This document shows, one piece after another, positions 324 through 50,631 of a stretch of DNA of 64,000 nucleotides. Position 1 is the stretch's first letter. Every line of letters starts with the position of its first letter. The notes under the pieces were generated by a model. That model saw nothing but the letters and a program-made list of their open reading frames with translations. It had not been told where the DNA came from and did not search any database. Position numbers and translations under genes: made by a program. This DNA comes from Bacteroidetes bacterium GWE2_42_24. Its GTDB lineage: Bacteria; Bacteroidota; Bacteroidia; Bacteroidales; TTA-H9. The stretch lies in the NCBI GenBank assembly GCA_001768515.1, contig MEOA01000007.1, positions 1-64,000 of the forward strand, in the 5' to 3' direction.

Positions 324-1433
324 TTAATCAAATGATATAATTGTTAACTCTTCCATCATACAGTTATAATACCTGACGGGAGGATCCACTCTTCCCGTTG
401 CTATTTCGCCAATCTTAGTCCACTCTTTCAGGACGAAAGGCAGCCCCCTGCTAAAAAACAAATTTGGCGAATCGGTGATCTGAAAATGTACATGTGGACA
501 ATCAGAGTTACCTGAATTTCCGAGCAAAGCAATTGGATCTCCTTCATGAACCGTCTGCCCCTCAGAAACAAGAAACGAACCCGGCACACAGTGGGCATAA
601 AGGGCGTAATGATTATTATCAATTTTCAACACCAGATAATTTCCACCCATCTCATCTATCGAATTCATCACAACATCATGCTGATTTCCTGAGTTTTCAG
701 GTCTTCCATCCCGAAGAGCTTCAATTGAGCCATCAGCTACGGCAAAGAGGGTATCTTTATAATTGTAGTACGACTCATTAACAGCAGGATCTCCATTACG
801 TATTTCTCCGGTACTATCTATTCTGACGTTATCAAAAGCAAAACGCTCCCCAGTGTAAATTGATCCATCGACAAAAAACATCGTATTAAAATGGTATTGC
901 ATGGTTGACTGATTAATAAACAGCCAGTCATATCCTTTTACTGGTGAAAGAATTGAGATTGGAGTCTCAGTTGATCGCGGAGAGAAGATAGCCCCATCTA
1001 CGATGACCTCGGTGTCATGAACGGTGTCTTTTAAAACCAGTTGGTGAGCGATGGAGGAAGGAATTGACTGCGTAACCGGAATTGGCAACTGAACCGACAT
1101 GTAATAGTGATCAATCTGATCAGACACAAAATAACCATTTGGTTTAATAGGGCTACTATGAATCACAACACTATCTGTTTTGTCGATTACCATCAGTACA
1201 TCTTTTGTATGGTTATCAAGAATCCGGAGCTTTTCAAAAAGGAGGCCATCCTTCTTGAACTCCCACATCTTCAAGACATAACCTATTCTGGAAAATTTTT
1301 CAGTTTTAAATGGAATATCACTGAAAATGACCGAAAGTTTTGGCGATTGGATTACTTCTTCATTATCTTTACTACAGGCCACTATTAAAATAATCGTCGT
1401 CAAAAACAACAATGACAAGTTTTTATACTTCAT
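324..1433 (-). CDS. M23 family metallopeptidase lipoprotein
   Basis: Predicted secreted, lipid-anchored zinc endopeptidase of the LytM/M23 type, a family that usually cuts peptidoglycan cross-bridges. The N-terminus is a lipoprotein signal peptide with cysteine at residue 20 (LIVACSKD). The peptidase domain lies in about residues 175-345. It shows the divergent M23 layout YHFN...RFAFDN, whose His and Asp are likely metal ligands, then YALYAH, LLGNSGNS and the HVHFQ motif. The first 170 residues are an unassigned, probably beta-rich region. The gene sits 19 bp downstream of another lipoprotein gene on the same strand, so the two are probably co-transcribed. The family is clear; the substrate is not, and some relatives of this subgroup may not be cell-wall enzymes. 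Confidence 0.85.
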   Translation of the reverse strand: MKYKNLSLLFLTTIILIVACSKDNEEVIQSPKLSVIFSDIPFKTEKFSRIGYVLKMWEFKKDGLLFEKLRILDNHTKDVLMVIDKTDSVVIHSSPIKPNGYFVSDQIDHYYMSVQLPIPVTQSIPSSIAHQLVLKDTVHDTEVIVDGAIFSPRSTETPISILSPVKGYDWLFINQSTMQYHFNTMFFVDGSIYTGERFAFDNVRIDSTGEIRNGDPAVNESYYNYKDTLFAVADGSIEALRDGRPENSGNQHDVVMNSIDEMGGNYLVLKIDNNHYALYAHCVPGSFLVSEGQTVHEGDPIALLGNSGNSDCPHVHFQITDSPNLFFSRGLPFVLKEWTKIGEIATGRVDPPVRYYNCMMEELTIISFD

Positions 1434-49722: not shown

Positions 49723-49762
49723 AAAAAAAAAGAGGGTCGGAAATCACCAAAAACCGACCCTC
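49723..49762 (-). terminator. Intrinsic terminator of the small minus-strand unit
   Basis: A perfect 9-bp stem (49732-49740 with 49754-49762) and nine T on the minus strand (49731-49723). On the plus strand no T-tract follows, so it is oriented for a leftward transcript, not for lipB. Confidence 0.9.
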
Positions 49763-49786
49763 AAAACCTGAAGCGGCGAACTTCAG

Positions 49787-49885
49787 TTAATCAGCAAAAG
49801 AACAAGATTCCTTCTTCACAATGCGGCCACACCAAATAACCGCTGGTTCAATCTCAGAAATGTGATAATCAGGAAAACTTTGCAT
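49787..49885 (-). CDS. Small open reading frame of 32 codons (leaderless candidate) or small RNA
   Basis: Starting at ATG 49885 and ending at TAA 49787, the frame begins MQSFPDYHISEIEPAVIWCG and ends VKKESCSFAD. It has mixed hydrophobic and charged residues, two cysteines and no low-complexity bias. No family is recognised. The ATG follows the -7 promoter box by only two bases, so the predicted message would have almost no leader. After the stop comes a small hairpin (CTGAAG/CTTCAG) and then an intrinsic terminator, which makes a unit of about 160 nt. Alternatively this is a non-coding RNA whose frame is accidental. It opposes lipB and is divergent from the ACT-like gene. Confidence 0.45.
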   Translation of the reverse strand: MQSFPDYHISEIEPAVIWCGRIVKKESCSFAD

Positions 49886-49887
49886 TA

Positions 49888-49916
49888 CAAATGTACAATA
49901 ACAGCACGCAGATCAA
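49888..49916 (-). promoter_or_regulatory. Promoter of the small minus-strand unit
   Basis: Minus-strand TTG (49916-49914), an 18-base spacer and TACATTTG (49895-49888). The -7 box is a perfect match to TAnnTTTG. No longer minus-strand gene begins downstream before the terminator at 49723-49762. Confidence 0.7.
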
Positions 49917-49968
49917 GAAATTTTTTTGATATTTGCACAAATTTATAACATTCTGTTAAAATTTTAAC

Positions 49969-50631
49969 ATGCAAACCATTGCAAATATTATAGAGAACGT
50001 GCTGATGCAATACCCGTTCTTGTGGGAGAACCTGAGCGACGGGTTGGTAAACACTTCAGCCTTAGCCAGAATGATGATGCCGGCAGTTGAAAGGGAGATG
50101 GGGCGTCCCGTGAAGGAAGCTGCTGTGATGATGGCTATTCGCAGGTTAAGTGTCCAATCGCCCGCGATGATGCAGTCAAGGCTTAATCAGTTTCTCAGGA
50201 GCCTGGGCGACATCACCGTACGATCAAATCTTGACGATTTCACCTTCCGCAATTCGTATACACTCGCGCAGAATCAGGCGAGGTTGCTACAGGAGGTTTC
50301 AGCCCGTCATGATTTGTTTATCACCTTTGCACAGGGGGTCAATGAATCGACAGTGATTGCCTCTACGTCCATCCGTGAGGTAGTAGAGGAAGTGTTTAAT
50401 GGAGAGGAGTTGCTTCATCACGTGAGTCCGTTGTCGTCGCTTACGGTCCGTTTGCCTAGTCAGAACATGGCGGTCATCGGTCTCTATTACCAGATATTCA
50501 GAAGTCTGGCCTGGTATGGAATTAACATCGTGGAGGTTATCAGCACCGCCAATGAGTTTACCTTAATTCTTCTGGAAGATCAGGTAGATAAGGCATTCAG
50601 GGTTATCAAGGATATGAAGAAAGGATCATGA
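49969..50631 (+). CDS. ACT-like regulatory domain protein of unknown function
   Basis: A 220-residue protein. The N-terminal half is helical (NIIENVLMQYPFLWENLSDG, ALARMMMPAVEREMGRPVKE) and may be a winged-helix-like DNA- or protein-binding module. The C-terminal half (about 155-215) has the strand-helix pattern of an ACT or aspartate-kinase-type regulatory domain (LTVRLPSQNMAVIGLYYQIF, GINIVEVISTANEFTLILLED). Such domains usually bind amino acids. Together the two halves suggest an effector-sensing regulator, but this is inference and no specific family name is claimed. It converges on the macroglobulin gene. Confidence 0.6.
   Translation: MQTIANIIENVLMQYPFLWENLSDGLVNTSALARMMMPAVEREMGRPVKEAAVMMAIRRLSVQSPAMMQSRLNQFLRSLGDITVRSNLDDFTFRNSYTLAQNQARLLQEVSARHDLFITFAQGVNESTVIASTSIREVVEEVFNGEELLHHVSPLSSLTVRLPSQNMAVIGLYYQIFRSLAWYGINIVEVISTANEFTLILLEDQVDKAFRVIKDMKKGS

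Follow-up and report, generated by a model that had tools for sequence, protein, structure and literature searches.

A small transcription unit on the minus strand between lipB and an ‘ACT-like’ gene of Bacteroidetes bacterium GWE2_42_24 is, all RNA readings taken together, very likely an RNA gene. It probably specifies a new, narrowly distributed sRNA of about 160 nt, which would act by base pairing through an invariant box and invariant loops. An RNA is favoured over a protein because the short reading frame within the unit decays among relatives while the RNA elements persist. The case for the unit is made convincing by its persistence among relatives and not by the source sequence alone.

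The window, that is, the whole stretch of DNA analysed, comprises positions 1-64,000 of the forward strand of contig MEOA01000007.1 (assembly GCA_001768515.1). The unit was compared with its counterparts in two genomes of the same genus (G002 and G001) and one from another genus of the same family (G006), so that three of the four sequences come from one genus. Identity to the source is 92% in G002 and 82% in G001; in G006, blastn matched only the 3' part, at 75% identity (E 3.2e-6).

Architecture of the unit

The elements of the unit are as follows, in the order of transcription.

49914..49916, minus strand: -33-like TTG of the sRNA promoter, by its pattern (TTG-N18-box)
49888..49895, minus strand: -7 box TACATTTG (pattern TANNTTTG), in 4/4 genomes
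49787..49885, minus strand: 32-codon frame, judged non-coding on its decay in relatives
49723..49883, minus strand: predicted sRNA transcript, about 155-161 nt, its +1 placed by published spacing and its end by the terminator
49803..49883, minus strand: variable 5' domain, a predicted rod (MFE fold)
49794..49802, minus strand: invariant box UUCUUUUGC, a candidate seed for pairing or site for a protein, identical in the source, G002, G001 and G006
49768..49786, minus strand: 7-bp hairpin with an invariant 5-nt loop, UCGCC (MFE fold, conservation)
49775..49779, minus strand: the UCGCC loop, possible kissing partner of GGUGA; invariant in 4/4 and so without covariation signal
49732..49762, minus strand: perfect 9-bp stem of the terminator, its loop UUUUGGUGAUUU invariant (fold, conservation, compensatory changes)
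49744..49748, minus strand: terminator-loop GGUGA, which may kiss UCGCC (complementarity)
49723..49731, minus strand: nine-T run after the terminator stem

The TTG (49916-49914), the 18-base spacer and the -7 box TACATTTG (49895-49888) all lie where the initial annotation had placed them, as do the small hairpin (49786-49768), the perfect 9-bp stem (49762-49732) and the nine T (49731-49723). The promoter pattern alone is unremarkable, with two exact matches in the 64-kb window against 1.18 expected, a count reached by 30 of 100 shuffles. Among relatives, the -7 box reads TACATTTG, TATCTTTG and TACTTTTG, and the pattern TANNTTTG is present in all four genomes. The spacer is only 10/18 identical between the source and G002, while the box is kept. 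The distance from TTG to the box is 18 bases in the source and in G002, 16 or 22 in G001, and 19 in G006.

The spacing between the -7 element and the transcription start differs from promoter to promoter. In Flavobacterium johnsoniae, the -7 element is reported to end with a G at -5 (PMC6847099), and this published spacing would make 49883, the G of the frame's ATG, position +1. RNA polymerase carrying the Bacteroidota primary sigma factor would thus start near 49883 and stop at the intrinsic terminator. A second -7-like box, TAAATTTG, lies 50 bases upstream on the same strand (49945-49938, minus strand). It is kept in the source, G002 and G001 but absent from G006, and no TTG precedes it at a distance of 12-24 bases; it could give a longer transcript. 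A scan for sigma-70 promoters and short-loop terminators, which targets another promoter type and terminator loops of 3-8, found neither element on the sRNA strand.

Three sites in the window have a perfect 9-bp stem followed by a T-run, whereas none of 10 first-order Markov windows has any. Besides that of the unit, the window contains two strong terminators with perfect stems, at 8243-8220 and 3127-3105, both on the minus strand. The fold of the unit including its terminator is better than that of shuffled sequences (z -2.57; 3/200 as good), whereas the fold without it is unremarkable (z -0.42; 72/200 as good). Because the terminator points towards lipB from the 3' side of that gene, the unit is not the leader of a downstream gene. 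A promoter and a terminator of its own, with no downstream gene served, support at the level of sequence the earlier description of a self-contained transcription unit.

Decay of the reading frame

The ATG at 49885 and the 32 codons to the TAA ending at 49787 were confirmed, and a frame of this length is in itself unremarkable. It is open in the source and in G002. In G002, however, TTG replaces the ATG, and of the five codons that differ (start included), four alter the residue. In G001, a stop follows 11 codons into the frame, and the beginning of the unit in G006 has no convincing alignment to the source. A leaderless small protein would be expected to show a conserved start and frame and an excess of synonymous changes, none of which was found. 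The 32-codon peptide has no Pfam match at E 0.001.

The proposal of an undescribed small protein with two cysteines was therefore rejected on the decay of the frame in G002 and G001. A leaderless message, also proposed, is unlikely as well, since a +1 at 49883 would fall inside the ATG and leave the start codon only partly transcribed. In Bacteroides thetaiotaomicron, leaders shorter than 10 nt are reported for about 3.7% (PMC7366714). The upstream TAAATTTG box, present in three genomes, would supply a leader to a frame that is open in two of them. Set against the altered start, the mostly non-synonymous changes, the early stop, the lack of a Pfam match and the position of +1 expected from F. 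johnsoniae (PMC6847099), a small-protein gene, whether leaderless or read from the box at 49945-49938, is very improbable. The small RNA that the initial annotation offered as its alternative gains support, since RNA elements persist while the frame decays.

Conservation and covariation of the 3' half

Conservation is concentrated in the 3' half, from AAGGAATC to the T-run, which is 88/89 identical to the source in G002 and 82/89 in G001. The corresponding values for the 5' part are 65/70 and 48/72. As a yardstick, just 26 of 70 four-fold sites in lipB are identical between the source and G001. In G006, the box UUCUUUUGC, the UUCGCC loop and the terminator loop UUUUGGUGAUUUCC are all unchanged, and compensatory changes are found in both stems. 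One pair of the hairpin stem changes from C-G to U-A and another from U-G to U-A, while three pairs of the terminator stem carry compensatory changes.

Over the four-sequence alignment, all 83 of 83 cells are paired (100%) and four pairs are changed on both sides, a count made on 21 pairs, five of which are the never-varying proposed kissing pairs. Such pairing together with four double-changed pairs was reached by 3 of 500 shuffles, and the covariation score by 1 of 500; structures with slid partners gave 0-1 double-changed pairs. The three same-genus sequences alone show covariation no better than shuffles (161/500). With four sequences, three of them from one genus, the covariation evidence is good but not strong.

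The 5' domain behaves differently. Its predicted rod (MFE) pairs GCAAAG with UUUUGC and UUCCU with AGGAA around an inner GCGG..CCGC hairpin. Helix P3 of this domain is broken in G001 and is 66.7% paired across the three same-genus sequences, and RNAalifold on four sequences recovered the hairpin and the terminator, not the rod. The fold of the 5' domain is thus not supported by covariation. Conservation of structure in close relatives, on which the initial annotation had staked the unit, is seen in the 3' half, where stems and loops are kept with compensatory changes alongside an unconserved frame; the same does not hold for the 5' domain.

Distribution and genomic context

A model of the RNA (R1) was searched over 295 genomes of the order, 31 relatives and 395 genomes of the phylum. 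The source, G001, G002 and G006, four of the nine family genomes examined, have convincing copies, and neither these searches nor a loop-pattern scan of genome contigs yielded another. The unit is single copy in the source genome. Among the 31 relatives, 18 genomes had matches at E 1, with these same four strong. In the order and the phylum, where searches of more than 40 genomes used stricter filters, scored 11-15 candidates per genome and may miss weak members, matches were obtained in 17 genomes at E 0.1 (strong only in the source and G006) and in six at E 0.01 (strong only in the source), respectively. Within the family, G004 and G008 gave weak matches (E 0.016 and 0.27), and G003, G005 and G007 none at E 1.

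Inspection of 25 weak places, comprising all 16 from the order, four more of the 26 from the relatives and all five from the phylum, found UCGCC in 0/25, UUCUUUUGC in 0/25 and GGUGA in 3/25. The exact loop pattern gave 42 genome stretches, three of which (G006, G002 and G001) have both stems and a T-run when folds are judged by eye, and six viral stretches, none of which does.

In all four genomes, the RNA and the ACT-like gene are divergently oriented. The other flank of the RNA is lipB in the source, G002 and G001, and smpB in G006. The ACT-like gene is patchily distributed (7/41 relatives), and among the nine family genomes it occurs in the same four that carry the RNA. The gene also occurs in three genomes outside the family (G036, G038 and G039), where the examined stretch gave no match to R1.

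The ACT-like gene itself (49969-50631, plus strand) matches nothing in Pfam at E 0.001; in NCBIfam it weakly matches aspartate kinase (E 0.0093), scoring 15 bits where the cut-off is 402. Directly before its ATG (49969) lies a perfect 16-base palindrome, TGTTAAAATTTTAACA (49953-49968, plus strand), a possible operator of the gene. Similar palindromes are found upstream of the gene in G001, G002, G006 and G039. In G006, the start of the ACT-like gene is overlapped by an upstream 26-codon frame seen by eye (L006, about 917-994, minus strand).

Relationship to 6S RNA and other known families

Searches with Rfam 15 gave no match in the window at the gathering threshold, nor any at E 0.5. A 401-base stretch returned chance-level rows only (best E 1.2). 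The known RNAs that most invite comparison are 6S RNAs, including 6S-Flavo (RF01685) and Bacteroidales-1 (RF01693), which, like the unit, are small, independently transcribed and of similar size. A strongly diverged 6S RNA, acting as an RNA polymerase decoy, would fit the independence of the unit and its rod-like predicted 5' domain, and the CUUUUG within the invariant box resembles, in the authors' own reading, a -7 element.

However, RF00013, RF01685 and RF01693 have no match in the window at E 0.5, and the source genome probably has its own 6S gene elsewhere. Among 60 relatives, RF00013 matched two; RF01693 matched 25 at E 1, nine of them above the cut-off; and RF01685 matched 22 at E 1, none above the cut-off. 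The source was not among the genomes matched by any of the three, nor were G001 and G002 among those matched by RF01693. The 6S-like RNA of G003 was matched by RF01685 at 34.2 bits, below the cut-off of 85. Two weak collinear matches to it (E 0.038 and 0.071) lie in the source at C67 56457-56655, flanked by genes encoding ZapA and RNase Y domains. This region has no Rfam match at E 0.1; its collinearity and neighbours make it the likely 6S RNA of the source. In a three-way alignment judged by eye, the unit had no convincing alignment to either 6S-like sequence. A 6S identity was rejected on the lack of a family match and on this likely 6S gene at the ZapA-RNase Y locus, and is the least probable of the readings considered here. 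In the same searches, six places matched both RF01685 and RF01693; the results suggest that Bacteroidales-1 is 6S-related.

Proposed function and competing explanations

The predicted RNA would begin with its variable 5' domain, followed by a single-stranded UUCUUUUGC, the UCGCC hairpin and the terminator hairpin with loop UUUUGGUGAUUU. Contact with other molecules is inferred because these unpaired segments are invariant in an otherwise changing RNA. Base pairing with mRNA is the commonest use of such invariant unpaired segments. The sRNA would most likely act in trans, by short pairing of the invariant box, the loops or both with one or a few mRNAs. Hfq has no match in the source genome at E 0.01 and the RRM domain has one, so action would be Hfq-free, perhaps with this single RRM-type protein as partner. 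A crude duplex scan of 47 start regions in the window, run without a control, ranked the ACT-like mRNA 46, 28, 43 and 44 of 47, so that neither this mRNA nor any other is supported as a target.

The base-pairing sRNA draws on several lines of evidence: conservation of the 3' half well beyond that of the lipB four-fold sites, double-changed pairs that shuffles rarely match, a -7 box kept while its spacer changes, a terminator directed at the 3' end of lipB, and an unchanged divergent neighbour in G006 where smpB stands in place of lipB. The lack of an Hfq match and the single RRM match also agree with the precedent of FopS and GibS acting with RbpB (PMC11697453). It is weakened by the small and mostly same-genus sample, by the broken 5' helix and by the unremarkable fold without the terminator. 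Moreover, invariant loops would fit a protein-binding RNA equally well. The main competitor, though an unlikely one, is a noncoding RNA that would bind a protein, as sponge or scaffold, and not mRNAs, its invariant loops forming a kissing-loop or pseudoknotted fold. Both loops are invariant in 4/4, and GGUGA could pair with the hairpin loop over its full 5 nt, an extent of pairing (five pairs) reached by 0.3% of shuffles of these loops but by 6.3% of random loops of these lengths. The match was also spotted in hindsight, and loops that never vary can give no covariation signal.

A more elaborate and rather improbable reading is of an RNA family confined to this bacterial family, in which UCGCC and GGUGA would kiss, the terminator hairpin would be a functional module, UUCUUUUGC would be the seed between, and the RNA would switch between kissing and target-bound states. 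It is also quite improbable that there is no RNA gene at all, only a strong terminator for lipB-convergent or stray transcription in DNA conserved for another reason. The terminator is indeed the strongest part of the unit, and the thermodynamic signal is mostly its own. However, termination does not require the invariant UUCUUUUGC or the two invariant loops, and the relatives retain the -7 box. The base-pairing sRNA thus remains the preferred reading.

Comparison with known small RNAs

To our knowledge, few sRNAs of Bacteroidota have been described outside Bacteroides and Flavobacterium, and Hfq-free regulation is poorly understood. A limited literature search for a Bacteroidetes sRNA combining an intrinsic terminator with kissing found no prior description. 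The unit represents a defined, single-copy sRNA candidate with strictly kept loops that is absent from Rfam, and illustrates that a tidy pattern of promoter, frame and terminator can be an RNA gene and not a leaderless peptide. As a lineage-specific structured sRNA of an ordinary kind, newly found, it is a modest addition, because such RNAs are common.

Described systems offer partial parallels. The unit differs from the 6S families in lacking a family match and in the likely location of the genome's 6S RNA elsewhere. The Rfp sRNAs of Flavobacterium psychrophilum, Rfp18 among them, are like the unit lineage-restricted and strongly structured, and are proposed to pair by way of a stem-loop (PMC9723704); they belong to another order and another locus. 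FopS and GibS of B. thetaiotaomicron, which act by base pairing with involvement of the RRM protein RbpB, are, like the unit, independent intergenic Bacteroidota sRNAs with a sigma-ABfr type promoter and an intrinsic terminator (PMC11697453). FopS, described as a multi-copy family, combines an unpaired 5' part with a terminator hairpin (PMC11697453), whereas the unit is single copy, has a 5' domain and one hairpin more, keeps its loops invariant and is without an Rfam match. FopS and GibS carry a conserved single-stranded seed (PMC11697453), and the unit has its invariant UUCUUUUGC, predicted to be single-stranded.
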